Assembly: GCA_002839855.1 (NCBI GenBank)
Contig: PGYV01000006.1
Coordinates: 1-64,000, forward strand
Source: Candidatus Goldiibacteriota bacterium HGW-Goldbacteria-1
GTDB taxonomy: Bacteria; Oederibacteriota; PGYV01
Length of the DNA stretch: 64,000 bases
Direction: 5' to 3'
A program made the translations under genes and the position numbers. Shown piece after piece: positions 4,214 through 62,263 of the stretch (its first letter is position 1; each line of letters opens with the position of its first letter). The notes beneath the pieces are model-generated. The model made no database searches and was not told where the DNA came from. It saw only the letters and a list, made by a program, of their open reading frames with translations.

Positions 4214-4242
4214 TTTAATTTACGCGGAGTTTGACGGATAAA

Positions 4243-4438: not shown

Positions 4439-4863
4439 TTTAGGTGTGGATGTTTACCAAAACAAAATGAAAAAACAACTGCCCCGGATAATATTGCATG
4501 ATGCCTGATACAGCTGAAATATTAAAACCCGCTGTTATCAATACTAAACTATCCGATTTTCCGGCCATCCGACCGTCAGTTTTTCCCTTCGTTCCTTCCC
4601 GGGCTTGGGTATATTTTTTCAGGGTGTGCCGAAAATTGGTATTCTTGCATCCAAACAAACTTGAAATCAACATGGTGTTAATTAATTGGCAATCGGGAAT
4701 TTGCGGCACATACGTATATGCCGGCGCGGCATTTAACAGCTCCTGCCGCAGACACAGTATATTAGCGCGGCACACCCTGAAAAAAAACACCCAACCCCTG
4801 TAGGTGTTAATCTAATTTCCGAATCTCGCTGACCTTCTGTCCTTGGATTTTATTCTTTGCCCC
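4439..4863. other. Gap with an imperfect long inverted repeat, MITE-like
   Basis: No gene that I can support. Arms at about 4601-4631 and 4768-4797 are inverted copies of each other: both contain TTTTTTCAGGGTGTGCC on one strand or its complement, and the match extends into the flanks with mismatches. The 136-base interior includes a small CATACGTATATG palindrome. Both strands can be read as short open frames sharing an FFRVCR peptide, which is simply the inverted repeat read twice. A decayed miniature inverted-repeat element is one reading; a large RNA hairpin is another. Confidence 0.45.
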
Positions 4864-4940
4864 GGCCGCCCAGCCGCGTCTTTTTCTTCCGTCCCTCGTG
4901 TTTTCTAGGTTGCCCAGCCGCTCAGCCGCTTAGCTGCGTC
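4864..4940 (-). repeat. Degenerate octamer array upstream of leuS (CCCAGCCG/CTTAGCTG type)
   Basis: Two clusters of CCCAGCCG-like units (4864-4877 and 4912-4937) flank a CCGTCCCTCGTGTTTT phrase. The same phrase and array occur upstream of several other genes here, always in this pyrimidine-rich orientation. The leuS -10 box (TATAAT, 4992-4997) lies about 50 bases further on. Confidence 0.55.
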
Positions 4941-5033
4941 TTTACAGCCGTCCCTCTATTTTTTATCTTCCATCTTCCCATTTTTTCGTGATATAATTTA
5001 TCCATTGTTTACAAATCCAGGAGGAAATTATAT

Positions 5034-12979: not shown

Positions 12980-13222
12980 CAGGGAAATGTTTGATTTTTA
13001 TGGATGTTATATATCCGGCAGGCGCGTGTTTTGTCTTTGCTTGTAGAGACGCAATATATTACGTCTCTTTTTTTATGTCCAATCTTAAATTTTCGGATTA
13101 ATTTAACCTGTGAAGAAAAAATATCCGGCGATGAAGTAAGCTTGTAAGATTAAGCGGCCGGAAAAATTAATTAGTTTTGATATAAACAACGCGCCCTAAA
13201 GGGCGCGGCTACCAGATCCAAA
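12980..13222. repeat. Convergent gap with two dispersed hairpins
   Basis: 13043-13067 is a palindrome of the GTAGAGACGC family (arms GAGACG and CGTCTC) followed by seven T, so it could terminate the GH44 transcript. 13187-13214 is a hairpin (GCGCCC-TAAA-GGGCGC) ending GGCTACCA, the inverted orientation of the TGGTAG element; on the minus strand it lies beyond the octamer array that follows the lipoprotein gene. No gene seen. Confidence 0.6.
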
Positions 13223-13328
13223 CCTAGCTGCCTAGCTGCCTAGCTGCTTAGCTGCCTAGCTGCTTAGCTGCCTAGCTGCTTAGCTGCCTAGCTGCCTAGC
13301 TGCTTAGCTGCTTAGCTGCCTAGCTGCT
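13223..13328 (-). repeat. Octamer tandem array, about 13 units of CCTAGCTG/CTTAGCTG
   Basis: Units of exactly 8 bases alternate between CCTAGCTG and CTTAGCTG. Read on the minus strand, which is the coding strand of the adjacent gene, it is (GGCAGCTA/AGCAGCTA)n starting 7 bases after that gene's TAG stop. Because 8 is not a multiple of 3, a TAG or TAA falls in every reading frame within 24 bases. It is the longest and cleanest array in the window. Confidence 0.9.
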
Positions 13329-13335
13329 GCCCTTC

Positions 13336-26839: not shown

Positions 26840-26840
26840 A

Positions 26841-26949
26841 CGGCGGCTAGGCAGCTAGGCAGCTAGGCAGCTAGGCAGCTAGGCAGCTAGGCAGCAAGGC
26901 GGCAAGGCGGCAAGGCGGCAAGGCGGCAAGGCGGCAAGGCGGCAAGGCG
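26841..26949 (+). repeat. Octamer array directly after the GH9 stop codon
   Basis: (GGCAGCTA)n units turn into (GGCAAGGC)n units without changing the 8-base period. The array starts one base after the TAG at 26837-26839, in the same orientation relative to the gene as at 13223-13328. Confidence 0.88.
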
Positions 26950-27150
26950 GGCGCACCTTTTAAGGTGCGGTTGTAGCGAGCATGCGAAGCGGAAATCCCG
27001 GCAATGAAGCGAGCTTGCAATCTGAAGCGGGCGGGACAGTTGGTTGTTAATATGAAGAATATTTTAAATAGAATAGAACCAGTATAAAACGGATTAATTA
27101 TATAAAAACATAATCAAAACAACGCGGGCTAAAGACCCGCGTCTACCAAG
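26949..27150 (+). repeat. Composite repeat plus inverted hairpin
   Basis: 26949-27048 contains the GCGCACCTTTTAAGGTGCGG hairpin, then a block with GAAGCGGAAATCCCGGC and AATGAAGCGAGCTTGC, ending GCGGGACAGTTGG. The same block follows the hairpin at 31575-31683. 27121-27150 is a hairpin of the GCGGG...CCCGC class in reverse orientation, ending GTCTACCA. Confidence 0.75.
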
Positions 27151-27235
27151 GCACAAAGAAACTTCCAACCATCCAACCATCAAGGTGTCTTAAATATATT
27201 CCGTGCTTTTATCATCTATCTCTGATATGTCTTAT

Positions 27236-27290
27236 AGCTTCCCAGCTTCCCAGCTTCCCAGCTTCCCAGCCGCCTAGCTGCCTAGCTGCC
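27236..27290 (-). repeat. Octamer array upstream of the 27449 gene
   Basis: CTTCCCAG units passing into CCTAGCTG units, period 8 with a few exceptions. Reverse orientation to the array at 26841-26949, so the gap is framed by inverted arrays. Confidence 0.75.
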
Positions 27291-27309
27291 GTATTTCTCC
27301 CTTATTTCA

Positions 27310-27338
27310 TTGCCAATCTATCCCTGTTTTAGTATAAT
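27310..27338 (+). promoter_or_regulatory. Predicted promoter of the 27449 GH9 gene
   Basis: TTGCCA (27310-27315), a 17-base spacer and TATAAT (27333-27338), leaving a leader of about 105 bases. Confidence 0.55.
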
Positions 27339-27372
27339 AAACACCGTTTCAGAATTGCACTTTGACCGAAAC

Positions 27373-27386
27373 TTTAAACGCTTAAA
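27373..27386. promoter_or_regulatory. Putative LacI-type operator TTTAAACGCTTAAA
   Basis: Near-palindrome with a CG centre, resembling TTTTAACGTTAAAA at the regulator's own promoter. It lies about 35 bases after the -10 box, consistent with a downstream roadblock site. Confidence 0.45.
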
Positions 27387-27448
27387 TTTGTCAAAATAAT
27401 TGTTAAATGTGATAACCGCAAAAAGAATAATTTAAGGAGAAACGGCAC

Positions 27449-30400: not shown

Positions 30401-31534
30401 ACATCCACTTTCACAAACACTTATACGGCAACAGATACCGCCACAAGCACATATACTTATACGCATACCAGTTCACATACCGCCACAAATACACCGGAGC
30501 CTCCCACAAATACACATACCGCAACTGATACCGCGACATATACTTATACGAATACAAATACATCCACTTTCACATATACGCATACACATACGGCAACGCA
30601 TACCAATACGGAAACCCCGACAGACACAAATACCGCAACAATTACAAACACTCCGCCGCCGGGCAGCACAAACACGCATACTTTCACAATTACATCAACT
30701 CCGTCGGATACTCATACCGCCACATATACTTATACTTACACATTTACAAATACGGCAACGCAGACCTATACCGAAGTGCCTCCGACCTTTACAGGTACTT
30801 TCACGGAAACGTTTACGTTCACATACACTTCAACTTACACGCACACGGCAACAATAACAGATACGGTTCCGCCGGGAAGCACGTCCACTAACACCCCCAC
30901 GCAAACGCTGATTCCGTCAAATACCCACACGCATACGGCCACTGAAACAAGTACTTATACAAACACTTATACCGCCACAAATACTTTTACGGAAACAAAC
31001 ACGGTTCCGCCGGGAAGTACAAACACTAACACTCCCACAGAAACGCTGATTCCGTCAAACACTGATACCGCTACACATACACACACGCATACGTTTACAA
31101 ATACATACACGGCTACAAGTACACCTGTTATTCCGACTGATACGCATACGGCAACGGCAACGGTTCCGGCGCCCACAGCCACGATTACAAATACTCCCTC
31201 TTCCATTATCGCGGAAGACGCAAAACAGATAATTTCTGAAGTTATGATTTATCCAAATCCTTATAATTCTAAAATTTCTCCGGCAGGACCCTTTGTCATA
31301 TTTAAACTTGCGAAGAATGCCGCAGGAGTGTCGCTTAGAATATATTCATCTTCATTCAGGCTTGTGAAAAATATTGAATTTGAAGGAGTATTTACGGCAG
31401 GGTTGAACAGGGCGCATACCCGCGCAGAAGATTTTAAAAATCTTTCAAACGGCACTTATTATTTTGTCCTGACAGCGGACGGTGCATCAGGAAAAGCCAA
31501 AAGCAAAGCGGATAAGATGATTGTCTTAAAATAG
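27449..31534 (+). CDS. Secreted GH9 cellulase with two malectin-like modules, long Thr-rich linker and YPNP domain
   Basis: 1361 residues, TTG start with AAGGAG upstream. Signal peptide (ends IFSAQ), immunoglobulin-like domain (about 20-108), then GH9 (about 110-555) with DAGD at 173-176 and Glu540 in TSNEVAINW. Two malectin-like (diglucose-binding) domains follow: about 594-750 (LRVNVAGAQ...NALRIESYYP) and 811-953 (IRVNCGGAAY...FRAIAI). Then about 300 residues of alternating Thr linker, for example TNTHTATDT, broken by PPGSTNT stretches. The C-terminal domain (about 1258-1361) has YPNPYNSK, YSSSFRL and GTYYFVL. The malectin modules probably hold the enzyme on glucan chains. The linker is unusually long for a cellulase. 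Confidence 0.92.
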   Translation: MKKLTLLTIAVLFITVNIFSAQNNAIRVDMEGYRTLGNKYVILVGNSATSFTVKTVSGGTTVFTGTFSAAVADAASGDSVKTGDFSALTTPGEYYVAVTGLGESYNFRISDTIHTDTLTTLMRGFYGQRCGASVTLTHRGTTFTHGACHLNDGTYAGSTGLNGTKNTTGGWHDAGDYGKYALNCGVTNGELLLMYEKYYDALEHINLGLPYSGGALPDVLTEIKYNLDWHKKMQHTNGGVFHKLSNGFPQNIMPTSDTDTRYIFAISSAATADFAAVMAIAARVFDMYDAAYAAECLTAAQNAWAFLQANPNIVPAGGFTDGSMGGIYGDTDDSDERLWAAVELFNTTGEAQYNTYVAAHYTDRTLTLMSDLGDDWKELHPVAYMSYMQSKQPSVNTTVVNAMKTLFQPQVNTFRNRVQSTNGYKFVLNSGDYYWGSNSVALNRAIRLVAASEIFGDDTYKDAAEEVLHYILGRNAMNKSYLTYVGEVYTNQPHHQPSAADGITPPWPGILAGGPNEYYDTIGAPAKCYVDDAGNYTSNEVAINWMAAYAYVLAAFVPTPGPTNTPTNTPTSLCHPLTCTFTQTSTPTVTATPINVLRVNVAGAQVTTGGNVWLADKAYIAGSWGYNTPANTGDRTALGNIVNNTTDDVLYLTERWGAALSYTFDLADGWYLVTLKFNEMFVNSANARLFNILLEGQVVESSFDVYAVNNSQAYAVDRSYPVLLTDGKLNIDLTQVTEMCILNALRIESYYPPTATYTYTPLNTNTFTNTATATATFTNTSTSECYPLTCTFTNTNTYTSTQTPTNTPVPTPIRVNCGGAAYLDGAGNTWAADYGFTGGTATSVTDAIAGTTDDTLYQSERYGNPSYTFTVPNGYYDITFKFAETWFNAAGERIFDVSVEGVTVIDNLDLYVSAPGAMRAYDVIISNVLITDGQINITASSAVDSANFRAIAIIPAGPAPTFTYTNTVPPTNTHTNTNTDTATATSTFTNTYTATDTATSTYTYTHTSSHTATNTPEPPTNTHTATDTATYTYTNTNTSTFTYTHTHTATHTNTETPTDTNTATITNTPPPGSTNTHTFTITSTPSDTHTATYTYTYTFTNTATQTYTEVPPTFTGTFTETFTFTYTSTYTHTATITDTVPPGSTSTNTPTQTLIPSNTHTHTATETSTYTNTYTATNTFTETNTVPPGSTNTNTPTETLIPSNTDTATHTHTHTFTNTYTATSTPVIPTDTHTATATVPAPTATITNTPSSIIAEDAKQIISEVMIYPNPYNSKISPAGPFVIFKLAKNAAGVSLRIYSSSFRLVKNIEFEGVFTAGLNRAHTRAEDFKNLSNGTYYFVLTADGASGKAKSKADKMIVLK

Positions 31535-31566
31535 CAGCTAGGCAGCTCAGCAGCTTAGAAGCTCAG
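31535..31566 (+). repeat. Short octamer array directly after the stop codon
   Basis: CAGCTAGG, CAGCTCAG, CAGCTTAG and AAGCTCAG units starting on the base after the TAG at 31532-31534. Confidence 0.7.
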
Positions 31567-31574
31567 TTTAGATC

Positions 31575-31796
31575 TGGTAGGCGCACCCTTCAGGGTGCGG
31601 TTATAGCAAGCCTGCGAAGCGGAAATCCCGGCAATGAAGCGAGCTTGCGAGTGAAAGCAGGCGGGACAGTTGAACTTGGTTGTAAACAAAACGACTTCTG
31701 CCTCTGTTATAACGACGTTATTACTATGCGTACGAAACAAAAAAAATCGCAACAATTAAATCTAAACAGTACGGGATAAAAACCCACATCTACCAA
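31575..31796 (+). repeat. Composite hairpin repeat and a decayed inverted hairpin
   Basis: 31575-31600 is TGGTAGGCGCACCC-TTCA-GGGTGCGG; it continues to about 31683 with the block shared with 26949-27048. The stem differs from that copy at paired positions (ACCTT/AAGGT versus ACCC/GGGT), so pairing is kept. 31767-31796 is a degraded reverse copy ending ATCTACCA. Confidence 0.7.
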
Positions 31797-31810
31797 TACC
31801 AAACCTTCAG

Positions 31811-31848
31811 AGCCGCCAAGCCGCTTAGCTGCCCAGCTGCTTAGCTGC
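31811..31848 (-). repeat. Degenerate octamer array upstream of the GH5 gene
   Basis: CCGCCAAG, CCGCTTAG, CTGCCCAG and CTGCTTAG units in the pre-gene orientation. Confidence 0.6.
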
Positions 31849-31877
31849 AGTCCTTTGTTAAACATTTAACCGCAACT

Positions 31878-31891
31878 TTTTAACGTTAAAA
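31878..31891. promoter_or_regulatory. Putative LacI-family operator, exact copy of the lacI-operon site
   Basis: TTTTAACGTTAAAA, identical over all 14 bases to 21447-21460. A TAATAT box at 31907-31912 would place this palindrome over the -35 region. Confidence 0.65.
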
Positions 31892-31975
31892 CTGTCAAAA
31901 GTATGGTAATATACAGGAACGTGATTTTTCATTATGAAATGGCTTAAAATACCATGCAAAAAAGAGGAGATTTCA

Positions 31976-34912
31976 ATGAAAAAATCTTTAAACGCCTTAT
32001 TAATGGTGTTTATCTTTATTCCTTTATTATATGCCACGCCTGTATCTGAAAACGGCGAGCTTAAGCTTGTCGGAAATCAGCTTTCCAATTCATGCGGAAA
32101 TCCGGTCCAATTAAAAGGAATGTCCAGCATGGGGCTTCAGTGGTACGGCGTTGGTCAGTGTCTGGATACCGCCACTATGGATTATATGGTTAATACAATT
32201 GGAATTGATGTATTCAGGGCTGCTATGTATGTTGATGAAGGCGGATACCTGACTGATAAAACGAAATACTCTAATATGGTAAATACAATTGTTGACTGGT
32301 GCGAAGCACGGGGTATTTATGTGATAATTGACTGGCATATGCTTACGCCGGGCGATCCTAATGCTCATATTAATGAGGCCAAAACTTTTTTCGCGGAAAT
32401 GTCATTAAGGCATAAAGATAAAAAGCACGTAATATATGAAATCTGCAACGAACCTAACGGCGTTTCGTGGTCAACTGTTCAGACTTACGCGAATATCATA
32501 ATCCCCATAATCCGCGCAAATGACCCTGACACCATAATAATAGTAGGTACGCCTAACTGGTCACAGCTTGGTACTGATGTTGCAAATAATAAATTAAACT
32601 ATACAAATATTATGTACACGTTTCATTTCTATGCCGCATCACATTCCACCGGCTTAGTTACGCCCTTTACCGATAAACTTCCAATTTTCTGTACAGAGTG
32701 GGGCATAAGCGATGCAAGCGGAAACGGCGCAATTGACACTGCAAACGCCACGAATTTTTTAAACATATTTGACGGAGCCAATACAGGCGGTCAGAAAATA
32801 AGCTGGGCAGGGTGGTCGTGGTGTGATAAAAACGAATCTTCTGCGTATCTGCAGGCAGGGTCGTGCCTCAGCAACCCGCCAAGGTTTACAACCGCGGGTA
32901 ACTATATAATAGGCAAGATTCAGACGAATCCGAATAACTGGACAGCGTGTAACGCGCAGACTCCCACTTTTACAAAAACAATAACACCGGGCGGGCCTAC
33001 GTTTACACCCACCAGAACGCCCACTCCTTTTGCAAGTTTGTTGGTCAACTGTGCCGGGCCGCAGTATACAAATGCGGAAGGCGTATGGCAGGCTGATAAA
33101 GCTTACGCGGCAGGAAGCTGGGGATATGTGGGTGGTACGGTTGTAAGCAGGGGAAGTGTGGCAATTGGCAATACCACAGATGACACGCTGTATCAGACTG
33201 AACGTTATGCGGACCCGGTGGAATACAGGTTTGATATTCCTAACGGGACATATTCGGTTACGTTTAAAATGTGTGAATCTTATTGGGGAAACACGACAGG
33301 CGGAAACGGAAGCAGGATATTTGACATAGTAGCGGAAAACAATACTGTAGTAAACAACCTTGATTTGTACGCGGTGGCGGGATATAACAATGCTTATGAC
33401 GTAACGGTCAATATTACCGTAAATGACGGGCAGCTTAATATATCAATGCCTGCTGATGTTGATAACGGGCTTATTAACGCGATAAAAATTGTAAACGCGG
33501 CTTCTGTGACAAACACTCCCACAAGGACCAATACGTTTACCGCCACAAGGACGCATACAAATACGTTTACAAAAACATTCACGCACACTTTTACAAGGAC
33601 GAATACTTTTACCGCGACAAGGACAAACACCTTTACCGCGACAATTACTCATACTTTTACAGCCACAAGGACAAATACGCCCGTACCTCCCACAAACACG
33701 TTTACAAATACGGCTACAAGGACATATACGCCGGTACCTCCCACAAACACATTTACAAATACGGCGACAAGGACATATACGCCGGTACCTCCCACAAACA
33801 CATTTACAAATACGGCTACAAGGACATATACTCCTGTGCCGCCAACAAGCACATTTACTGACACAGCCACAAAGACAAATACGCCCGTTCCGCCTACAAA
33901 CACGTTTACTAAAACGGCTACAAATACTGCAACAAACACATTTACAAATACGGCAACTAACACAGCCACAAAAACAAACACGCCTGTGCCGCCGACAAAC
34001 ACATTCACGAACACTGCCACAAAGACAAACACGCCGACTGTTACGGAAACACCTATCCCGGGCAGCACTGATACGTTTACACATACAATAACAAATACAT
34101 TTACAAAAACAAATACGTTTACAAATACGCATACTGCAACTGATACATTTACGCCTGTTCCGCCCACAAGTACGTTCACAAACACGGCGACAAATACATT
34201 TACAAATTCCAATACCGCCACCAATACAAATACCGCCACAATTACAAACACGCCTCCGCCGGGAAGCACAAATACGTTTACGCACACAATAACAAATACA
34301 TTTATAAATACGGCCACAAATACGTTCACGTCAGTGCCGCCGACAGCCACGCATACATATACAAGGACGTTTGTAAATACGGCCACAAACACTTTCACGT
34401 CAGTGCCGCCGACAGCCACGCATACATTTACAAGGACGTTTATAAATACGGCCACAAATACGTTCACGTCAGTGCCGCCGACAGCCACGCATACGTTTAC
34501 CGTTTCTTATACTGAAACAGCCGTTGTTTTTACCCCCACATATACCTTTACGGCAACCGTAACTGTTGTGTTTACAGGTACGCCAACGCCGGTTGCTACT
34601 GAAGGCAAAAAAGCCGAAATTAAAGATGTTGATGTTTATCCGGTTCCTTTTGGAAAAAAAGGGAACGTATATTTTGAATTTACCCTTACCAAAAGCATGA
34701 ACTCCGTTGAGCTGAAGATTTATTCTTCGGGTTACAGGCTGTTAAAGAGAGTTGATGTTTCTTCGGCATGCGTTCCCGGAAGAAAGAAGAGCGCAATAGC
34801 GGCAGGGGAATTTGTAAATCTTGCAAATGGGACGTATTATTTTGTACTGGAAGGTAATAGCGCGGACGGATATGTGAGAAGCAGGACAGAGAAGATGATA
34901 ATTTTAAAATAG
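31976..34912 (+). CDS. Secreted GH5 endoglucanase with malectin-like module, very long Thr-rich linker and YPNP domain
   Basis: 978 residues. The start at 31976 follows AAGAGGAG and begins the signal peptide; an upstream in-frame ATG (31934) adds 14 residues without a ribosome site. The GH5 domain (about 20-325) is a close paralogue of the one at 22497: [19 protein letters not shown], Glu159 in YEICNEPNG and Glu241 in FCTEWG. A malectin-like domain (about 355-508, LLVNCAGPQ) follows. The linker (about 510-880) includes near-exact DNA repeats: a 51-base unit three times near 33686-33838 (17 residues ending TYTPVPP) and a 69-base unit near 34307-34500 ([11 protein letters not shown]). The C-terminal domain has YPVPFGK instead of YPNP, then YSSGYRL and GTYYFVL. 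Confidence 0.92.
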
Positions 34913-34973
34913 AGGCTTGGATGCTTTGAGGCTTGGATGCTTTGAGGCTTGGAAAGCTTGGCAGCTCGGCTTG
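34913..34973 (+). repeat. Tandem array after the GH5 stop (AGGCTTGGATGCTTTG units)
   Basis: A 16-base unit made of two related octamers, AGGCTTGG and ATGCTTTG, repeated about three times from the base after the stop, ending in CAGCTCGG. Confidence 0.65.
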
Positions 34974-34985
34974 AGTCTTTTGTCA

Positions 34986-35152
34986 TGGTAGGCGCACCCT
35001 TTAGGGTGCGGCAGTCAGCTGTGGTTAGGCATTTGTTGTCCTGGTAGACGCGGGTCTTTAGCCCGCGGCAGTTGGATTTGTTTTAAAACAGAACACGCGC
35101 ATAATACCGAGCAATGTAATAATAGGCTCGGTATTAAAAGGCGGGGCTACCA
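34986..35152 (+). repeat. Hairpin cluster upstream of the broken GH9
   Basis: 34986-35015 is TGGTAGGCGC with ACCC/GGGT arms; 35042-35073 is TGGTAGACGC with GGG/CCC arms ending GCGGCAGTTG; 35101-35152 holds AATACCGAGC and GCTCGGTATT arms followed by GGCTACCA, probably a reverse variant with a different stem. Confidence 0.7.
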
Positions 35153-35327
35153 GGGCTTAATACATAAAAAATTATATTTAAGTTATTACAAATGACAGAA
35201 CAGGAGAATGATTTTATGAAAAAAGGGATACTGAAATTACTTACAGGGCTTTTAATATTAATCCCGTCGTTTATATTCTCTGCGGATTCTCAGGTTAGGG
35301 TAAATTCTGTGGGATTTCTTCCTGCAA

Positions 35328-37973
35328 ATGACAAAGGGGCGTCGGTCTCTACGGCGGTTTCGGGCTTCAACAAACGCTGTTGTTTTTTCTTCAACCGCCG
35401 CTAATATCACCGGGCCGGTTAATGCAACTGATTCCAATGAAACTGTTTATAAACTTAATTTTACCTCTTTTACAACACCCGGCACCTATTATGTTGATGT
35501 GACCGGCGTCGGCAGGTCGGTTAATTTTACTATAGCGGATAATGTATATAATGATGCTTATATTACTTCTTATAAATCCATGTATTACTGGCGCTGCGGA
35601 ATGGCTGTCAGCGCTGTTACAAACGGGCAGACTTTCGGGCACGGCGCGTGCCATACAAATGACGCGAATCAGAACTACATAGGATTTGGAAGCAATATTA
35701 GGGACGGAAAAGGCGGCTGGCATGATGCCGGAGATTTTAACAAATATATAGTTAACGCAGGCATAACAATGGGTATGTTCTTCATGGCGTGGGAACATTA
35801 CGGAAGCGTACTGAACAATATCCCGCTTACATACATGCCGAATACAGTTGCAGGTTATCCGGAGTATAATGTATCGGCGTATCCTGATTTTCTGAAAGAA
35901 TTAAGGTGGGAAATGGACTGGGTTTTAAAAATGCAGTATCCGGACGGTTCCGGTAAAGTTTCCCATAAATTAAGCACCCTGAATTTCGGCGGTTTTATAA
36001 TGCCGGAAACAGAAACCGCAACCCGCTATTATGTTGACTGGGGTTCTGCGGCTACCGCTGATTTTGTGGCGATGTGCGCAATGGCTGCCAGAATTTTCTA
36101 CCCGTATGACCCTGTGTACGCGCAGAAATGCCTTGACGCGGCATGGGTAAGTTATAATTTTCTGCGCACAAATACGGCGAATAAAAACCCGGATCAGTCC
36201 GCATTTACAACCGGAGGATATGGGACAACAGACAGCGACGACAGGCTATGGGCTGCAGCTGAAATGTGGGCCACGACAGGTGATGCCAATGCAAAGACAG
36301 ACCTTGATAACAGGGCAAATGCTTATTCCGATAAAACGGATGAGGATTTTGACTGGGGCAACGTAAAAAATCTGGGCATGTACACGTATTTGATGTGCAC
36401 AAGGACAGGCAAGAACACAGCTATTGTAAATGATATACAGGCTGATTTGATTGCCGATGCAAACACTATAGTTACAAAGAAAAATAATCACGCGTATTCA
36501 AGGCCTTTGGGCACAAATTTTTACTGGGGCTGCAATGGTTCGGTAGCAAGGCAGACAATGCTGCTTCAGATTGCCAATATGGTGTCGCCCAACGCTAACT
36601 ATGTTAATACAGCGCTTGATTCGCTTGGATATCTTCTTGGAAGAAACCCTTTCAGGCGTTCATATGTAACGGGAATCGGGACAAGCCCTCCGATGTACCC
36701 GCATGACAGGACGTCCGGCGCGGATGGTATAACAAATCCTGTGCCGGGATATCTTGTAGGCGGTTCTAACGGAACCAACAGCGGCGACCCCGCTTTAACC
36801 GCAATGCCGGCAGGCCTTGGTGCCGCTATGTACTGGACAGATAATCAGGATTCATATGCCTCAAATGAAATTGCTATAAACTGGCAGGGAGCGCTTGTTT
36901 ACGCGCTTGCGGGTTTTTGTAAAAATCCGTCAGTACCCACATTCACGCCCACTAATACAAATACGCCCGACGGCCCCACATATACTTTCACAAATACGGC
37001 TACGCAGACAAATACGTACACGCCGTCGCATACATTCACGGTTACACCCACTGTTGTATTACCTGTGGCAATTTGTTCCGGGCCATCTTTGATAATTGAC
37101 GGAAGCCTGGATGAAGCTTTCTGGCAGGCAGGGGAATGGACTGAGGTTTTAAAAGTGGTTACGGGTACAATGCCTGCGCCCGTATCCGCGCGTTATAAAG
37201 TGCGGTATGATGATTATGGTTTTACCCTTGGCGTGCAGATTACTGACAGCGCGCTTTACAATGATTCCGGCACAGAATGGTATAACGACGATTCGGTTGA
37301 ACTTTACCTTGATGTTAATAATGATAAAAGCACAACATACGACGCTGATGATTATCAGTTCAGCGTGCGCTACGTCGAAGGTATAATAAGGGAACAAAGC
37401 GGTGATCCCGGAAACGCTTACGCTGCTTACGGCTATATTGTGGGAGGTTACACGGTTGAAATTGATGTGCCATGGGCCGATTTGGGAGTTACCCCTTTTG
37501 AAGGCATGGTAATGGGTTTTGACGTAGGCGTAAATTATGACCAGGACGGCGATGAAAGGGAAGGTGTTTTGATGTGGAACGGCACAAGCACCAACTGGCA
37601 GAACCCTTCAAATTTCGGCGAAGTAACCCTTGGCGCGCCGTGCGGTGCCGCGGAAACGCCCACGCACACTTATACCAACACATCCACTTACACGCATACT
37701 GCGTCATACACATCAACCTTTACAAACACAGCAACAGTGCCTACAAACACGTTTACAAGCACAGCAACAGTGCCTACAAACACGTTTACAAACACAGCAA
37801 CAGTGCCTACAAACACGTTTACAAGCACAGCAACTGCACCTACATATACTTTTACGAGCACAGCAACTGCACCTGCAAATACGTTTACGAGCACAGCAAC
37901 TGCACCTGCAAATACGTTTACGAGCACAGACGTTTACAAATACGGCAACTGTTCCGACAAATACTTTCACTAA
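35328..37973 (+). CDS. Main frame of the broken gene: GH9 catalytic plus CBM9-like domain
   Basis: 881 codons open without a signal peptide; the ATG at 35328 lies out of frame inside the N-terminal part, so it is probably not a real start. It holds the end of the immunoglobulin-like domain (TPGTYYVDVTGVGRSVNFTI), a complete GH9 domain (GGWHDAGDF, LLGRNPFRRSYVTGIG, YPHDR, ASNEIAINW) and a CBM9-like domain (IDGSLDEAFWQAGEW...NDDSVELYLDVNND...YTVEIDVPW), then linker repeats. CBM9 modules bind chain ends of cellulose or xylan. All catalytic residues are intact, so the domain itself shows no decay. Confidence 0.75.
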   Translation: MTKGRRSLRRFRASTNAVVFSSTAANITGPVNATDSNETVYKLNFTSFTTPGTYYVDVTGVGRSVNFTIADNVYNDAYITSYKSMYYWRCGMAVSAVTNGQTFGHGACHTNDANQNYIGFGSNIRDGKGGWHDAGDFNKYIVNAGITMGMFFMAWEHYGSVLNNIPLTYMPNTVAGYPEYNVSAYPDFLKELRWEMDWVLKMQYPDGSGKVSHKLSTLNFGGFIMPETETATRYYVDWGSAATADFVAMCAMAARIFYPYDPVYAQKCLDAAWVSYNFLRTNTANKNPDQSAFTTGGYGTTDSDDRLWAAAEMWATTGDANAKTDLDNRANAYSDKTDEDFDWGNVKNLGMYTYLMCTRTGKNTAIVNDIQADLIADANTIVTKKNNHAYSRPLGTNFYWGCNGSVARQTMLLQIANMVSPNANYVNTALDSLGYLLGRNPFRRSYVTGIGTSPPMYPHDRTSGADGITNPVPGYLVGGSNGTNSGDPALTAMPAGLGAAMYWTDNQDSYASNEIAINWQGALVYALAGFCKNPSVPTFTPTNTNTPDGPTYTFTNTATQTNTYTPSHTFTVTPTVVLPVAICSGPSLIIDGSLDEAFWQAGEWTEVLKVVTGTMPAPVSARYKVRYDDYGFTLGVQITDSALYNDSGTEWYNDDSVELYLDVNNDKSTTYDADDYQFSVRYVEGIIREQSGDPGNAYAAYGYIVGGYTVEIDVPWADLGVTPFEGMVMGFDVGVNYDQDGDEREGVLMWNGTSTNWQNPSNFGEVTLGAPCGAAETPTHTYTNTSTYTHTASYTSTFTNTATVPTNTFTSTATVPTNTFTNTATVPTNTFTSTATAPTYTFTSTATAPANTFTSTATAPANTFTSTDVYKYGNCSDKYFH

Positions 37974-38505
37974 CACGGCAACTGTACCGACAAATACATT
38001 TACTAATACTGCAACAGTCCCTACAAATACGTTTACAAGTACTGTAACAGTCCCTACAAATACGTTTACAAGTACAGTAACAGTATCTACAAATACATTT
38101 ACAAGCACAGCAACAGCGCCGACAAATACTTTCACTCAAACTCCAACAATTCCAACGCCTACATATACTGTAACCCCTGTGATACAGGAAGGGGATAAAC
38201 AGAAGATTACGGATGTAATGGTTTTCCCGCACCCATATAACGCTTCCAAAAATCCTTACGCCGGCATAAAGTTTAACCTTTCCAAAAGCGCGGCTGTGGT
38301 AAAGATAAGATTATATTCATCAGCTTTCAGGTTGTTGGAAGAATCGGACATAGCAAAAAACTGCCACCCGGGCAGTAATATCGGCGCGATAAGCGGAAGA
38401 AGGCTGTCAACAATGTCCAACGGGACGTATTATTTTGTCCTGATCTCGGAAGATAATGCAACAGAGGTCAGAAGTAAAGTGGATAAGATGATAATAATGA
38501 AGTAA
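37930..38505 (+). pseudogene. C-terminal fragment: linker and YPNP-type sorting domain
   Basis: In this frame the linker repeats ([11 protein letters not shown], 11 residues or 33 bases) continue and lead to the C-terminal domain, which here reads FPHPYNAS, YSSAFRL and GTYYFVL. No start codon or ribosome site of its own is evident, so it can only be expressed as part of the upstream gene. Confidence 0.65.
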
Positions 38506-38814
38506 TGGTTAGAATGAAAACCTTATCCCATAACCTGTTATCCCATATCCCATAAATAAAGGCATACATCCGGCCGCGTCTTTACCTATGGGATAGGTGA
38601 ATGTTGGTATTATCAAATTTCGAATCTCGAATTTCGATTCTCGATACACTTCCGTCCCTCACGCTTTAAACCGTCCCTCATGTTTTCCTAGCTGCCTAGC
38701 TGCCTAGCTGCCTAGCCGCTTCTCTTTCCTCAATTTTTCTGCTATAATCATCACAACTTTATTCATTTGTTTTTGTCCAAAAACGAATTAACGCCTTATA
38801 TCAAAGGAGAAAAG
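38506..38814. other. Gap with short inverted repeats, octamer array and -10 box
   Basis: TATCCCATA near 38523 and TATGGGATA near 38586 form an inverted pair. A direct/inverted AATTTCGA-CTCGA motif lies near 38619-38645. The CCGTCCCTCA phrase occurs twice and is followed by CCTAGCTG units (38687-38720) in pre-gene orientation. TATAAT lies at 38743-38748 but has only a weak -35 partner. No forward GGCAGCTA array follows the stop at 38505, an exception to the general rule. Confidence 0.6.
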
Positions 38815-41800
38815 ATGACACTTAAACGGGTTTTAGCCACGGTATTTCTTCTTTCCATATTAAACTCTTACATTATTAGTGCGCCGATAACAGAGCAGAT
38901 TATCGTTGACCAGATAGGGTACAGGACAACTGCCGACAAATGGTTTATGATTGCGGATCCAAGGACGGGTTATAACGCAGCTGTTACATACGTTCCGGGT
39001 GCAAGCGTGGAATTAAGGCGCGCATCTGATGATATATCGGTTATGACTATCCCCGTTACCGCATGGAATGCCGGCGCGGAACATTCCCAGTCCGGCGATG
39101 TGGTATGGCAGGGAAATTTTTCCGCATATACAACGCCCGGTACTTATTACATATTTGACACCACAAACAATACTCAGTCATTTGATTTTGATATTGCGGA
39201 TGATACGTATAACACAATTCTTGAAAGCTCTGTTAAATCCTATTATTACCAGCGGTGCGGTACGGCAATTACCGGCGCTCACGGCGGTACGTGGACACAT
39301 GCCGCTTGCCATACAACCACTCAACAGACTGCGCGCCTTTACGACGCATCACTTGGCGGCGATCAGGGAGCGGCAACCGCACGCGACATTACCGGCGGAT
39401 GGCACGATGCCGGCGATTACAGAAAGTACACATCTTGGATGGCTGTTATAGTATGGGACTTGGCTTATGCTTACGAATGGAACCCGGACGCATTTTCGGA
39501 TGCTACCGGAATTCCGGAATCTAACAATGGCGTACCGGATATATTAGATGAAATAAAATGGGAACTTGACTGGCTTTTGAGAATGCAGGGTACAAACGGC
39601 GCGCTTTATTCAGGCGCATTTGTCGTGACAGGAATAAACGGAACAGGAAACGGTATCGGAGACCCGTCAACAGAGAACAGGCAGTATTTTTATGCCAACT
39701 ATTCAACAGCGGCCACAGGTTCCGGCTGTTCGTCATTCGCAATAGGCGCTCGCCTTTTTGCGCCTTATGAAGCAGCTTATCCGGGTTATTCCGCCGCGCT
39801 TCAAATCGCCGCCGAAAACGCGTGGGCTTATCTTCAGGCAAATCCTTCGAATATTACTTACAATCACACCGGGTTTGATAACGCCAACGCCAATAAAGGG
39901 GTTGATGCTGACAGGGGGCACAGGATAATGTCGGCAGCGGAACTATACAGGCTGACCGGAGATACAGATTATAGAACTTATATTGACGATCACTACGATG
40001 ACCCGCCTTCTACCGGAGTGCATAATCCGATTACAAGCGGATATTTTGAAACAAGCGGTTCTTATGAAATTCAAAGGGGATTGATTTCTTACTGCCTGGT
40101 GCCGGGCGCCACGTCATCAGTTGTAACCGCGGTAAAAAATTCAATCAATCAGGGTATACAGAACCAGGCTTATGGCCAGCGCAATAACGACCCATATAAG
40201 TCTTATACTTGGGATGGCCATCACTGTTGGGGTTCAAACGGAATCAAATCTGAATGGGGCAATCTTTGCGTCTTTGGTAATAAGTTAAATGTTAACGCCG
40301 GGCTTTCTGCGGCATATTTAAAAACAGGCGAAGAGTATCTTCATTACATTCACGGGCGCAACCCTAACGCGTTTAATTACATTACACAGTCTCAGCTTTA
40401 CGGCGCGGATAAGCCGATAAAGCAGATATATCACGGCTGGTTTCACCACGGCACGGTTTGGGATATAAATCCAGCGCCCGGAATATTATCCGGCGGGCCT
40501 AACTGGTACTTTGTTCCTGACGCTTCGTATATAGGCACAATAGAACCGCCGCAAAATCAGCCGCCCATGAAATCATATAAGGATTGGAACACAAGCTGGC
40601 CGGAAAATTCATGGGAAGTAACGGAAAATTCAACGGGCTACCAGTCGCGATACACTCTGCTTGCTTCGTTTTTCGCCTCTGCCGCGGGCCCGACAGCCAC
40701 GCCCACATATACTTTTACCTATACCGATACAATAACACCCGGCGGGCCTACGTTTACTTTTACGCACACGCCCACTGAAACATTTACAAACAGCCACACT
40801 TCCACACAGACGCCCACGCCTGTAAGCGTGCTTTTTAATACCTGCGATACCATAAATTACAACGGCGCCTGGACAGAAACCGCTTCTACAATATCCATCA
40901 ACACAATTGAAACAGCGGCCATTACGCAGGGGACAGGCGCGCTTCAGATTGATGTTGAAACAATTGCGGCATGGCAGGACGGAATAGCATCACTTGGCGG
41001 TTTTGTTCCGTCAGACTGGAGCGGTATTGCACGCATTGAAATGGATGTTTATATCGCGCCCGGCGAAGAACCTTGGGGCGCGGCAGATACTTATCATCAG
41101 CTTGTATTAGTTGTGGATTCAAATGATACTTCAAAATGGTACAGGACTATTACAGCAAATCAGAATATTACAACAGGCATGAACCACCTGGTGTTTACAA
41201 TAAACTGGGCACTTGATTTGGACCCTGACCCGATACTGCCCATAGACGCAATTAGCAATCTTACATTTATTATAAATTCAGAGACAGGAAATACAGGGAC
41301 GTTATATTTTGACAATATGATCCTTTATTCAACAGCATCCCCGGAGACACCAACCGCCACGATAACACTTACCCCGGTAATTTCCGCGACGGCAACAGCG
41401 ACAGTTACAATGACAGAAGTATTATCCGCCACGGCGACATTAACAGCAACTGCAACAGTTACAATGACAGAGGTGTTTTCGTTAACTATAACCAAGACGC
41501 CTACCGCGACAGTAACTGTAACACAGGATATATCATCCACATCGACGCCGACGGCAACGGCAACAGGAACTTCGACGGTGGAGGTCTCCGCTACATCAAC
41601 ACAGACAGCAACCCCCACGGCAACGCATACGGAAGAATTATCCGCGACAGTTACAAATACAATCACTGTAACAATAACAATTACTTCGTCCTTAACTTTT
41701 ACGGCAACGCCGACCATAACGCTGACGCCGGTTATTTCCGCTACAAATACGGTTACAAGGACAATTACTATCACGTCATTTACATCTCCGACACCAACAG

Positions 41801-42237
41801 TTACGCCTTCTATAACAGCCACTTTTACACGTACAATCACGGTGACGGTTACTCCCACTGTTACAAATATTATAAACACATTAACCCCAACCGTTACGCT
41901 TACACCGGCAATTCAGGAAGGGGATAAACAGGAAATTACAGATGTATTTATTTACCCGCATCCGTTTAACCCTGAATCTGACGAGATGAAAATGTTTATC
42001 AGATACAAGCTTTCAAAAAGTACAGGGTTGGTGAAACTGCGTTTATATTCGTCGGCGTTCAGGCTGATAAGCGAAACAGAAATATCCCAAAACTGCACCC
42101 CGGGAATAAACACCGGAAGCGTAAACAGGGGAAAACTGAAAAACCTTTCCACAGGAACGTATTATTTTGTGTTAACCACAGATAACGGCGAAGGCGAAAT
42201 TAAAAGCAAGGTGGATAAACTGATTATAATGAAGTAG
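38815..42237 (+). CDS. Secreted GH9 cellulase (divergent subfamily) with CBM-like module and YPNP-type domain
   Basis: 1140 residues; start at 38815 after AAAGGAG, ahead of the signal peptide (ends YIISAP). An N-terminal immunoglobulin-like domain (IIVDQIGYRTTADK) is longer than in the other GH9 paralogues. GH9 motifs are DAGD at 198-201 and Glu604 in WEVTENSTGY, the form found in another GH9 subfamily. The substrate signature is GRNPNAFNYITQSQ. A beta-sandwich module (about 670-840, ending TLYFDNMILYS) resembles CBM4/CBM11-type folds. The linker (about 841-1030) is richer in Val/Ser/Ala (TVTMTEVLSATAT) than in the neighbours. C-terminal domain about 1033-1140 with YPHPFNPES. Confidence 0.9.
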   Translation: MTLKRVLATVFLLSILNSYIISAPITEQIIVDQIGYRTTADKWFMIADPRTGYNAAVTYVPGASVELRRASDDISVMTIPVTAWNAGAEHSQSGDVVWQGNFSAYTTPGTYYIFDTTNNTQSFDFDIADDTYNTILESSVKSYYYQRCGTAITGAHGGTWTHAACHTTTQQTARLYDASLGGDQGAATARDITGGWHDAGDYRKYTSWMAVIVWDLAYAYEWNPDAFSDATGIPESNNGVPDILDEIKWELDWLLRMQGTNGALYSGAFVVTGINGTGNGIGDPSTENRQYFYANYSTAATGSGCSSFAIGARLFAPYEAAYPGYSAALQIAAENAWAYLQANPSNITYNHTGFDNANANKGVDADRGHRIMSAAELYRLTGDTDYRTYIDDHYDDPPSTGVHNPITSGYFETSGSYEIQRGLISYCLVPGATSSVVTAVKNSINQGIQNQAYGQRNNDPYKSYTWDGHHCWGSNGIKSEWGNLCVFGNKLNVNAGLSAAYLKTGEEYLHYIHGRNPNAFNYITQSQLYGADKPIKQIYHGWFHHGTVWDINPAPGILSGGPNWYFVPDASYIGTIEPPQNQPPMKSYKDWNTSWPENSWEVTENSTGYQSRYTLLASFFASAAGPTATPTYTFTYTDTITPGGPTFTFTHTPTETFTNSHTSTQTPTPVSVLFNTCDTINYNGAWTETASTISINTIETAAITQGTGALQIDVETIAAWQDGIASLGGFVPSDWSGIARIEMDVYIAPGEEPWGAADTYHQLVLVVDSNDTSKWYRTITANQNITTGMNHLVFTINWALDLDPDPILPIDAISNLTFIINSETGNTGTLYFDNMILYSTASPETPTATITLTPVISATATATVTMTEVLSATATLTATATVTMTEVFSLTITKTPTATVTVTQDISSTSTPTATATGTSTVEVSATSTQTATPTATHTEELSATVTNTITVTITITSSLTFTATPTITLTPVISATNTVTRTITITSFTSPTPTVTPSITATFTRTITVTVTPTVTNIINTLTPTVTLTPAIQEGDKQEITDVFIYPHPFNPESDEMKMFIRYKLSKSTGLVKLRLYSSAFRLISETEISQNCTPGINTGSVNRGKLKNLSTGTYYFVLTTDNGEGEIKSKVDKLIIMK

Positions 42238-42270
42238 ACGCTTGGATGGTTAGATGGTTAGAGGCTTGGT
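42238..42270 (+). repeat. Degenerate octamer array directly after the stop
   Basis: GCTTGGAT, GGTTAGAT, GGTTAGAG and GCTTGGTT: four units of 8 from two bases after the TAG. Confidence 0.65.
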
Positions 42271-42283
42271 TAATTCTTATGTC

Positions 42284-42373
42284 TTGGTAGACGCGGGTCT
42301 TTAGCCCGCGTTGTTTTGATTTGATTATGTAAAAACGGACCAACTGCCGCGGGCTAAAGACCCGCGTCTACCA
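42284..42373. repeat. Facing pair of hairpin elements
   Basis: Forward copy 42284-42314 (TGGTAGACGCGGGTCTTTAG...) and reverse copy 42342-42373 (...GTCTACCA) are inverted copies of each other, separated by about 27 bases. Together they could form one long hairpin, or each could fold alone. Confidence 0.85.
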
Positions 42374-42455
42374 AGACTAAAACAAACCGACCCTCTGCCC
42401 ATCCAACCTTCCGACCTTCAGTTTTTACTTCCGTCCCTTCGTTCCTCATGTTTTT

Positions 42456-42492
42456 CCTAGCTGCCTAGCTACTTAGCTGCCAAGCTGCCGCC
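42456..42492 (-). repeat. Octamer array upstream of the GH116 gene
   Basis: CCTAGCTG, CCTAGCTA, CTTAGCTG and CCAAGCTG units, preceded by ACTTCCGTCCC and CCTCATG phrases. Confidence 0.75.
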
Positions 42493-42503
42493 TTTTAAAC
42501 CAT

Positions 42504-42532
42504 TTGACACTTTTGCCCTAATTTTGTATATT
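42504..42532 (+). promoter_or_regulatory. Predicted promoter of the GH116 gene
   Basis: TTGACA (42504-42509), a 17-base spacer and TATATT (42527-42532). Both hexamers and the spacing are the same as at the lacI operon (21416-21444). Confidence 0.7.
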
Positions 42533-42550
42533 GTTTAAACGGTTAAACAA
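42531..42550. promoter_or_regulatory. Putative LacI-type operator at the GH116 promoter
   Basis: TTGTTTAAACGGTTAAACAA: half-sites TTGTTTAA and TTAAACAA around ACGG, with a CG centre. It overlaps the end of the -10 box, nearly the same geometry as the operator of the lacI operon. Confidence 0.55.
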
Positions 42551-42582
42551 TACGCCTTTATTAATATTATCGGGAGAAAACT

Positions 42583-47298: not shown

Positions 47299-47333
47299 AG
47301 GCTTGGACGCTTAGATGCTTAGATGCTTGGCAA
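47299..47333 (+). repeat. Octamer array directly after the GH116 stop
   Basis: GCTTGGAC, GCTTAGAT, GCTTAGAT and GCTTGGCA units beginning two bases after the TAG. Confidence 0.7.
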
Positions 47334-47362
47334 CATAGAGTCCGCGCGTTTTTGCTTTTGCT

Positions 47363-47672
47363 CTTGTAGGGATAGCGCTCCCGCGCTGTCCGGCTCTTTT
47401 TGTTTGGTATTAAATGTTTGGTAGGCGCACCTTTTAAGGTGCGGTAGTTGATTTTTTCTTTATGTTCTGGATCTTTTGTCCTGGTAGACGCGGGTCTTTA
47501 GCCCGCGGCAGTTATCTTGTCTTGGAACTTGTAGGGACGGCGTTCCCTCGCTGTCCGGTTCTTTTGTTGTCTGGTATTAAATGTTTGGTAGGCGCACCTT
47601 TTAAGGTGCGGCAGTTGATTTTAATCTGTGAATTAAATCAAAACAACGCGCCCTGAAAGGACGCGGCTACCA
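47363..47672 (+). repeat. Cluster of six hairpins with an internal duplication
   Basis: In order: GTAGGGATAGCGC class at 47363-47395; TGGTAGGCGC class at 47419-47449; TGGTAGACGC class at 47482-47513; GTAGGGACGGCG class at 47529-47560; TGGTAGGCGC class at 47586-47616; and a reverse copy at 47643-47672. The first two plus spacer (47363-47455) and the fourth plus fifth (47529-47620) are copies of one unit of about 93 bases, sharing GGTATTAAATGTTTGG between the hairpins. No gene is visible in the gap. Confidence 0.85.
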
Positions 47673-47752
47673 CTGCCAAAACAAACTGACCCGCCGCCCC
47701 TCGCGTTTTAAACCGTCCCTCCGTGCATCTGTCCCTCCGTCCCTCGTGTTTT

Positions 47753-47787
47753 CCCAAGCCTCTAACCATCCAAGCTTCCAAGCCTCA
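47753..47787 (-). repeat. Degenerate octamer array upstream of marR
   Basis: CCAAGCCT, CTAACCAT, CCAAGCTT and CCAAGCCT units after three CCGTCCCTC-like phrases (47700-47745). Confidence 0.6.
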
Positions 47788-47803
47788 GTTGTTAAAAAAA
47801 CAG

Positions 47804-47885
47804 TTGTCTGAACAAATAATTTCTGTTGACATCAGGCGGGATAATATATATACTTGTCCGAACAACAATATAGTTGCTTAGACAA
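47804..47885. promoter_or_regulatory. Three putative MarR-type operator sites (TTGY-N4-ACAA)
   Basis: TTGTCTGAACAA (47804-47815), TTGTCCGAACAA (47854-47865) and TTGCTTAGACAA (47874-47885). The last two are halves of a larger inverted repeat with perfect outer arms ACTTGTC and GACAAGT. One site lies above the -35 box, two overlap the start of transcription. The arrangement fits autorepression by the MarR protein encoded next. Confidence 0.65.
47826..47854 (+). promoter_or_regulatory. Predicted promoter of the marR-tolC-RND operon
   Basis: TTGACA (47826-47831), a 17-base spacer and TATACT (47849-47854). Confidence 0.7.
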
Positions 47886-47934
47886 GTATTAACATTCCGT
47901 TAACTGTAAATTAGCGGAAGGAGAGCAGGTTGAG

Positions 47935-56376: not shown

Positions 56377-56642
56377 TTTTTTAATATTGTTATAGTTTCG
56401 TCACCCGCATTGTCCGGCTCTTTTGTTTGGTAGGCGCACCTTTTAAGGTGCGGCAGTTTATCTTGTCTTTGAACTTGTATTAATATCACGAATGCCTGCG
56501 ATGTCTCAACATTCACGCTATCCGGCTCTGTTTGCTCTTGTATCTTCCAATCATCCAACCCTCCGACCTTCTGACCCTCAGTTTTCCTTCCGTCCCTCCG
56601 CACATCCGTCCCTCTGATCTATTTTTGCACAAAAATAACCAC
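56377..56642. repeat. Gap with hairpin remnants
   Basis: 56427-56460 is a full TGGTAGGCGC hairpin (ACCTT/AAGGT) preceded by TGTCCGGCTCTTTTGTTTGG, the tail of the GTAGGGA class as in the 47363 cluster. A second CCGGCTCTGTTTGCTCTTGT remnant lies near 56521-56540, then CCAATCATCCAACCCTCCGACC and two CCGTCCCTC phrases in pre-gene orientation. No gene seen. Confidence 0.65.
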
Positions 56643-56696
56643 AACAAAAACGCTTTTTGTTTGTCTAAATATCATTGAAACTAAAGCGTTTTTGTT
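56643..56696. promoter_or_regulatory. 14-bp perfect inverted repeat before the GH74 gene
   Basis: AACAAAAACGCTTT (56643-56656) and its exact complement AAAGCGTTTTTGTT (56683-56696). Each arm contains AAAACGCTTT-like sequence with a CG step, so it may be two operator half-regions or a hairpin. Confidence 0.55.
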
Positions 56697-56714
56697 AAAT
56701 CGGGAATAAAGCAA

Positions 56715-56743
56715 TTGACGGGGGATTAATTAAAAGTTATTAT
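56715..56743 (+). promoter_or_regulatory. Predicted promoter of the GH74 gene
   Basis: TTGACG (56715-56720), a 17-base spacer and TATTAT (56738-56743), 42 bases before the ATG. Confidence 0.6.
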
Positions 56744-56785
56744 TTAAATGAATTAAGGGAATCAACAAATATACGGGAGAAATTA

Positions 56786-61636: not shown

Positions 61637-61637
61637 C

Positions 61638-61672
61638 GCAGCTTGGCAGCTAGGCGGCTAAGCAGCTAGGCT
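61638..61672 (+). repeat. Octamer array after the GH74 stop
   Basis: CAGCTTGG, CAGCTAGG, CGGCTAAG and CAGCTAGG, period 8, starting three bases after the TGA. Confidence 0.8.
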
Positions 61673-61688
61673 AAAAAAAAATAAGGTT

Positions 61689-61846
61689 TGGTAGGCGCAC
61701 CCTTCAGGGTGCGGCAGTTGGTCTTGTTTTATTTCAATCTAAACACCGCACCCTAAAGGGTGCGGCTACCAAACCAAAGCAAATAACGGATTGTATATAA
61801 AAATGTTTCAGATGTGGTAGACGCGGGTCTTTATCCCGCGGCAGTT
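61689..61846. repeat. Three hairpin elements, two facing
   Basis: Forward 61689-61719 (TGGTAGGCGCACCC-TTCA-GGGTGCGG), reverse 61744-61772 (ACCC-TAAA-GGGT, ending GGCTACCA) and forward 61815-61846 (TGGTAGACGCGGG...CCCGCGG). Confidence 0.85.
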
Positions 61847-61959
61847 AATGTGTAAATCCCGGTAATTTCTTCGCTATAGCTTAATTGCTTAACCCGCTTA
61901 TGCTTAATATTTATAATGCCATTTGTGACTATAATCACTGTTTTTTCATCTTTATTAAG

Positions 61960-62045
61960 TATAATTGTTATAGATGTAGGGGCGGTGTTTTAGGCAGAGA
62001 TGGTGAGGTAAAAGCGGCGGATGAAAATCCGCCGCTTTTATTTTT
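61960..62045 (+). ncRNA. Possible small RNA ending in a strong terminator
   Basis: TATAAT at 61960-61965 could start an RNA near 61972. AAAAGCGGCGGAT (62010-62022) pairs perfectly with ATCCGCCGCTTTT (62027-62039) around GAAA, followed by ATTTTT. The terminator is about 370 bases from the GH74 stop and precedes no same-strand gene end, so a transcript of about 70-75 bases is possible. No convincing -35 box, and the segment GTAGGGGCGGTG also resembles the dispersed hairpin family, so this is tentative. Confidence 0.35.
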
Positions 62046-62063
62046 AGCAAATATGTTTTTTAA

Positions 62064-62132
62064 AGTAGAGACGCAACATGTTGCGTCTCTACTTTAAAAT
62101 ATAAAACCCGCACCCTAAAGGGTACGCCTACC
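62064..62132. repeat. GTAGAGACGC palindrome and reverse hairpin
   Basis: 62064-62094 is AGTAGAGACGCAACATGTTGCGTCTCTACT, a near-perfect palindrome given here by position (arms of about 13 bases around ACATGT). 62107-62132 is a reverse TGGTAG-type copy with ACCC-TAAA-GGGT arms ending GCCTACCA. Confidence 0.8.
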
Positions 62133-62178
62133 AGATCCATGCCAAACCTTCCGTCCCTCCGGCCATCGTGTTTTTATG

Positions 62179-62214
62179 CCAAGCCTCCAACCATCCAAGC
62201 CTCTAAGCCTCCGC
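62179..62214 (-). repeat. Degenerate octamer array upstream of murJ
   Basis: CCAAGCCT, CCAACCAT, CCAAGCCT, CTAAGCCT and CCGCCTTT, period 8, after a CTTCCGTCCCTCC phrase. Confidence 0.65.
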
Positions 62215-62263
62215 CTTTAAAAAACAATATCTTTATCTCAATAATTATTATATAATTTTCATC

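Follow-up and report, generated by a model that had tools for sequence, protein, structure and literature searches.

Several gaps between genes of Candidatus Goldiibacteriota bacterium HGW-Goldbacteria-1 appeared to be built from the same modules in mirror order. The gap at 42238-42582 raises the question of what these modules are, what keeps them in place and whether such gaps have a function. The window, i.e., the whole stretch of DNA analysed, comprises 64,000 nucleotides (contig PGYV01000006.1, positions 1 to 64,000).

Build of the gap at 42238-42582 and of related gaps

The gap runs from the stop codon of a GH9-type glycoside hydrolase gene (38815-42237) to the promoter of the gene that follows. 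It contains G-rich octamers, a forward hairpin, a reverse hairpin, C-rich octamers, the word CCGTCCCT and a CCTAGCTG array, which are followed by the promoter and the gene. This order, given in the original prediction, was borne out by direct reading of the coordinates. The CCGTCCC phrase listed there is also present, not as a separate module: CCGTCCC, CCGACC, CCAACC and CCAAGC are further octamer words. The elements of the gap are as follows:

42238-42270, plus strand: left (G-) arm, octamers GCTTGGAT GGTTAGAT GGTTAGAG GCTTGG of family B, directly 3' of the TAG stop codon
42285-42311, plus strand: forward GTAG-type REP hairpin R1, TGGTAGACGCGGGTCTTTAGCCCGCG; an identical sequence flanks the RAYT gene L163 of the sister species G002
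42347-42373, minus strand: reverse copy of REP R1, CCGCGGGCTAAAGACCCGCGTCTACCA, which forms a REPIN-like head-to-head dimer with the forward copy at 42285-42311
42387-42418, plus strand: right (C-) arm, octamers CCGACCCT CTGCCCAT CCAACCTT CCGACCTT
42431-42438, plus strand: the CCGTCCCT word, a family C octamer
42456-42489, plus strand: outer right array CCTAGCTG CCTAGCTA CTTAGCTG CCAAGCTG CC of family A, ending just short of the promoter
42504-42532, plus strand: sigma-70-like promoter of the next gene, TTGACA/17 nt/TATATT, from direct reading of the sequence

The RNA fold predicted for this gap had an energy of -112 kcal/mol (z = -11.5). In this fold, the octamers at 42238-42270 pair with those at 42387-42418, and the two REP hairpins pair inside. 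The CCTAGCTG array at 42456-42489 has no partner of the same family on the left side of the gap.

The full order, or its forward or upstream half, was confirmed in the other gaps that had been cited together with this one. These and further gaps of the window are built as follows:

26840-27448: same build; G-arm A (26844-26947), REP R2 forward (26945-26970), REP R1 reverse (27122-27148), C-arm words (27165-27180 and 27241-27288)
31535-31933: same build; G-arm A (31535-31566), REP R2 forward (31575-31600), C-arm A (31816-31847)
47299-47934: G-arm B (47299-47330), forward REPs R4/R2/R1/R4/R2, then one reverse REP, C-arms of family C (47713-47744) and family B (47754-47785)
61637-62263: G-arm A (61639-61670), REP R2 forward/reverse pair, R1 forward, palindromic R3, R2 reverse, C-arm B words (62147-62162 and 62179-62210)
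34913-35327: forward half only; G-arm B (34912-34953), forward REPs R2 (34986-35011) and R1 (35042-35068)
38506-38766: upstream half only; CCGTCCCT words and C-arm A (38687-38718)
12980-13335: right half only; REP R3, reverse R2 and C-arm A (13223-13326, 13 octamers), which adjoins the stop codon of a minus-strand gene
4214-5033: gap before leuS; an intrinsic terminator ahead of the arrays, REP R2 forward (4406-4431), C-arm words (4829-4955)
56377-56785: REP R2 forward (56428-56453), C-arm B/C words (56547-56578)

No Rfam family was matched within the window. At 4614-4790 there may be a further, independent MITE-like element, whose inverted ends read TTTTTTCAGGGTGTGCCG ... CGGCACACCCTGAAAAAAA, and a related end occurs in one gap of the sister genome G001. 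The window also contains genes for secreted glycoside hydrolase-like proteins, many of them with long threonine-rich coding repeats (30856-31122, 33593-34500, 37719-38129, 60989-61150). These repeats have periods of 12, 18, 33, 51 and 66 nt and probably encode linkers.

Words, placement and pairing of the octamer arms

Tandem arrays were searched for, without an assumed unit, in a sample of 824 kb, which is 29% of the same genome (G000) and includes approximately 57 kb of N; genes were called by a simple hexamer model. Period 8 accounted for 81 intergenic arrays and period 7 for 24. The remaining periods up to 19 nearly all had 0-5, except for 14, 15 and 16, which are multiples or sums. Coding arrays had periods of 6, 12 and 18 instead. 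The octamers form three rather pure families, which on the C strand read CYNAGCYG (A), CYAANCNT (B) and CYGWNCNT (C). The skeleton common to the families, C-Y-N-W-N-C-N-K, was matched 83 times in 66 kb of gaps versus 6 times in 696 kb of genes. Further words are heptamers (TRRCARG), one 15-mer, and words similar to AATTCGAA.

The orientation of the words was compared in four genomes: the one under study, G001 and G002 of the same genus, and G029 of a distant family of the same phylum. In ++, --, +- and -+ gaps alike, the left end is occupied by G-rich words and the right end by C-rich ones. Among the 34 gaps holding both kinds, 33 showed the G-then-C order (p = 4e-9) and one was mixed (C, G, C). 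Every element thus forms a palindrome whose 5' arm and 3' arm are fixed. Together with the excess of periods 7 and 8, this order puts such gaps far beyond chance. In stretches L129-L138 of G029, periods 7, 8 and 9 were represented by 24, 25 and 27 intergenic arrays, respectively.

At the 3' ends of genes, arrays begin a median of 6.5 nt past the stop codon, with 63 of 76 lying no more than 20 nt away. At the 5' ends, the median distance from the start codon is 83 nt, and the promoter and leader are spared. When gaps of at least 100 nt were considered, arrays were found in 13 of 18 convergent, 49 of 152 tandem and 4 of 30 divergent gaps (divergent versus convergent, p = 9e-5). Two-armed elements occur in some divergent gaps too, i.e., in gaps without any 3' end. 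Random placement of the modules with respect to gene ends and strand, which the original prediction had named as the outcome that would count against it, was tested for and was not what we found.

The left and right arms belonged to the same word family in 20 of 25 gaps, compared with 8.4 expected (p < 2e-5), and this concordance indicates that the two arms of a gap belong together. The two arms of a gap showed no better pairing than arms of the same family drawn from different gaps (p = 0.93). There is thus no covariation backing selection on the exact stem, and the derivation of the arms from each other by foldback was rejected. Consequently, the claim that the right side of a gap is the inverted left side holds for module polarity, skeleton and usually family, and fails for exact complementarity. 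The median z of the predicted RNA folds of 16 gaps was -5.25.

Orthologous gaps of at least 100 nt, with flanks about 80-95% identical, were then set side by side. Both species had arrays in 16 gaps and neither had one in 41; an array in the genome under study alone did not occur, and one in the sister alone occurred once (p = 2e-13). The word family differed in 10 of 15 pairs in which both gaps carried an array. At the divergent gap C4:61834, the promoters and boundaries are the same in both species and the interior is of TAGCTGCC type in the genome under study versus CCGTCCCT type in G001; the same was seen at C2:53332. The vocabulary is species-specific (A34/B31/C25 in the genome under study, A3/B22/C29 in G001, B1/C18 in G002), and several word families may be layered within one gap. 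There are also cases in which the orthologous gap is empty in one species and filled in the other (C3:104959), and G001 has a homogeneous B array right at a stop codon where the genome under study has none. We conclude that the position of the arrays is conserved and their wording is not. Since the sister species keep a palindrome in the same gap, often with different words, this suggests that palindrome shape and place matter more than sequence.

Families f8 and f16, which belong to the phylum, carry octamer arms as well, but most genomes of the same order lack them. The exact TAGCTGCC array gave just scattered single matches among 84,980 other genomes. Viral contigs gave 42 matches, mostly simple perfect octamers, and a clear G-then-C hairpin only in L207 (IMG/VR contig 3300037608_000083), where it is of family B; contigs L218 and L223 from the same sample also matched. 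L207 may be a phage, or host DNA from a carrier lineage that was assigned to viruses by mistake. A natural case of loss is G026 (1.7 Mb), which has neither octamer arrays nor any Y1 transposase, while its congeners G015 and G035 have both.

Inner hairpins and their transposases

Known GTAG-type REPs, REPINs and BIMEs are characterised by a 5' GTAG, a short palindrome, head-to-head dimers, an intergenic location near stop codons, and RAYT transposases (PMC3733652, PMC3116915, PMC2817692). The inner hairpins of the present gaps are alike. They consist of TGGTAG and a palindrome, in families R1, R2 and R3, and thus carry the 5' GTAG tag. Approximate REP heads numbered 90 in 66 kb of gaps versus 80 in 696 kb of genes, the latter being about the chance level. 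Forward copies lie mostly in the left half of a gap and reverse copies in the right half, and head-to-head dimers are formed, as by the pair at 42285-42373.

R1 and R2, the two main hairpins of the window, flank RAYT genes in the sister species. In G002, the gene L163 (154 aa) is flanked on both sides by R1 in inverted orientation; in G001, the gene L161, whose protein is 64% identical to that of L163, is flanked by R2. The genome under study differs from the known systems in having no intact cognate RAYT. It contains a frameshifted remnant (L025, C2:63771-64303, with frames of 81 and 96 aa) flanked by R3 GTAGAGACGCAACATGTTGCGTCTC palindromes; R3 is a third family of REPs, and the transposase belonging to it is broken. 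Two long Y1 transposases/RAYTs of about 330 aa are also present (L006 on G000:C7 and L007 on G000:C15), with unrelated flanking inverted repeats, AAACGCCCTGTCTGGGGTCAGACCCCAGACAGGGCGTTT and a TGACATT-type repeat. The inner hairpins are ordinary GTAG-type REPs/REPINs, placed here between octamer arms, which REPs lack.

No octamer arrays were found at the ends of the RAYT genes examined; the arms are neither REPs nor RAYT-flanking sequences. A RAYT as the mover of the octamer arms was rejected, as the long RAYTs of the genome under study have other inverted repeats and the other RAYTs are flanked by palindromes. The Y1_Tnp domain occurs in all array carriers but also in most non-carriers. The octamer arms are a layer separate from the REPs, with a patchy distribution, and the mobile small-repeat system proposed originally applies to the hairpins, which are REPs with cognate RAYTs in the sister species.

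Function, origin and relation to known systems

The explanation that we favour, tentatively and short of calling it probable, is that the gaps are bidirectional 3'-end or boundary hairpins, selected for place and foldability while their words turn over. Each such gap is a composite palindrome. Its outer layer is formed by paired, orientation-locked arrays of degenerate 7-9-nt words, G-rich first and C-rich last, which fill the free DNA between the stop codon and the promoter or stop codon that comes next. Inside lies at least one GTAG-type REP/REPIN hairpin, movable by a RAYT transposase. Because the palindrome reads the same both ways, a transcript from either flanking gene would fold into a long hairpin a few nucleotides past the stop codon. 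We infer that such transcription and folding take place in the cell, where the hairpin may act as a two-way transcript end or boundary, by ending transcription, protecting the 3' end or insulating the next promoter. Selection would hold place and foldability and not wording, so that arrays could expand, invade and replace one another while the gap keeps one; it would thereby be the cause of their persistence.

The positions of the arms fit a 3'/5'-end signal, which the original prediction had considered: they adjoin stop codons, lie upstream of promoters and prefer convergent over divergent gaps. A link to terminators was not supported. Intrinsic terminators were found at 4 of 42 array-adjacent 3' ends versus 18 of 112 in gaps without arrays, a difference that is not significant, and so the arrays were rejected as a replacement for intrinsic terminators. 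A T-run followed the C-arms in 22% versus 15%, near background. This lack of a terminator signal, the occurrence of elements in some divergent gaps and the lack of pair-level covariation speak against the boundary reading, and targeted insertion into existing palindromes could be an alternative source of the conserved presence.

The main rival is neutral or selfish layering, which is possible, though we consider it unlikely. Slippage-expanded words and palindromic elements would nest wherever DNA is free, polarity would be the mere shape of the inserted element, and positions would persist via insertion into existing palindromes. The REP layers are of a mobile type, families are layered within single gaps, orthologous gaps such as C3:104959 may be empty or filled, and there are slippage-like runs (TAGCTGCC x13 at 13223; CCTTCCCT runs in G001). 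However, presence is almost perfectly conserved between the species and sequence is not. Words of family B differed by 1.76 mismatches within an array versus 1.82 between arrays; MITE-like, near-identical array copies at different loci were not found, and no long word strings are common to different gaps. As divergence within arrays equals that between them and long strings are not shared, family B arrays are neither the result of recent slippage of one word nor recent transposed copies. The word strings that family B gaps have in common did not exceed those of shuffles, while families A and C showed a small excess, with some slippage signal and some signal of transposed copies.

Improbable, in our estimation, is a dedicated process that writes or rewrites boundary arrays, by which the same gaps would be converted to the vocabulary of the species with polarity and position fixed; if true, it would be a concerted, position-preserving intergenic turnover without a known bacterial counterpart. 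Arrays bound by a recognition protein (a nucleoid protein, Rho, or a CsrA-like RNA-binding protein) would account for the regular spacing and the fixed skeleton, but one genome contains several unrelated vocabularies, which take each other's place at a given gap; we regard such binding as hardly probable. We give very little credence to enzymatic array writing, telomerase-like or by a retro-element, in which species-specific words would be added at gene boundaries. The species-specific vocabularies and the homogeneous B array at a stop codon in G001 agree with it, and the polarity would be that of head-to-head telomere fusions. However, reverse transcriptase PF00078 (RVT_1) is absent from G000-G002, from the f16 carriers and from nearly all others, G015 being the only carrier to have it. 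A G-quadruplex function, as proposed for the GGGAATC arrays of Xanthomonas, is most improbable: polarity and positions match those repeats (PMC4692102), but a three-tetrad G4 is possible in just 5 of 90 arms, and families A and B mostly lack GGG tracts.

The Xanthomonas and Nostoc heptamers GGGAATC / GGGGA(C/T)T are intergenic arrays of short words (Rehm et al. 2015, PMC4692102). In Xcc there are about 70 inverted pairs, few arrays lie between divergent genes, and position, unlike length and sequence, is largely preserved across species (83%) (PMC4692102). The present arrays show the same polarity, in which the G-rich strand faces away from the gene at either of its ends, the same adjacency to stop codons, the same rarity in divergent gaps, inverted pairs as in Xanthomonas, and the same positional conservation; their architecture is therefore of a known kind. 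In contrast to that single heptamer with G4 potential, the arrays here are not built on a GGGNATC unit with G4-forming G-tracts. Octamers dominate, among several degenerate vocabularies of 7-, 8-, 9- and 15-nt words, mostly without G4 potential. These vocabularies occur side by side, are matched by family between arms, surround REPINs and take one another's place at orthologous gaps, and the phylum is an unrelated one. The TAACTGA direct repeats of Beggiatoaceae are likewise intergenic arrays of a short word, patchy across taxa; they consist of a single word, mostly just upstream of starts, with 1 inverted per 170 sets (PMC4679880). The HOOF-print octamers of Brucella, AGGGCAGT, are also tandem arrays, in which a single word is repeated at eight loci and serves as a VNTR marker, and framing of gaps is not reported for them (PMC7589603). 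Our literature search found precedents for heptamers and none for inverted octamer pairs of multiple vocabularies. The novel features are the vocabularies of octamers and of multiple words, most of which lack G4 potential, the family matching of the arms, the nested REPINs, the replacement of whole families at orthologous gaps, and the unrelated lineage.

If the boundary reading is right, bacteria can possess intergenic elements that are selected for place, polarity and foldability and hardly for sequence, and ordinary searches based on conservation would therefore miss them. The polarity and stop adjacency common to Xanthomonas, Nostoc and an unrelated phylum, here mostly without G4 potential, point away from G-quadruplexes and toward inverted pairing or position at the gene boundary as the shared property. 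The genus pair offers natural replacements, in which the same gap and promoters are combined with other words.
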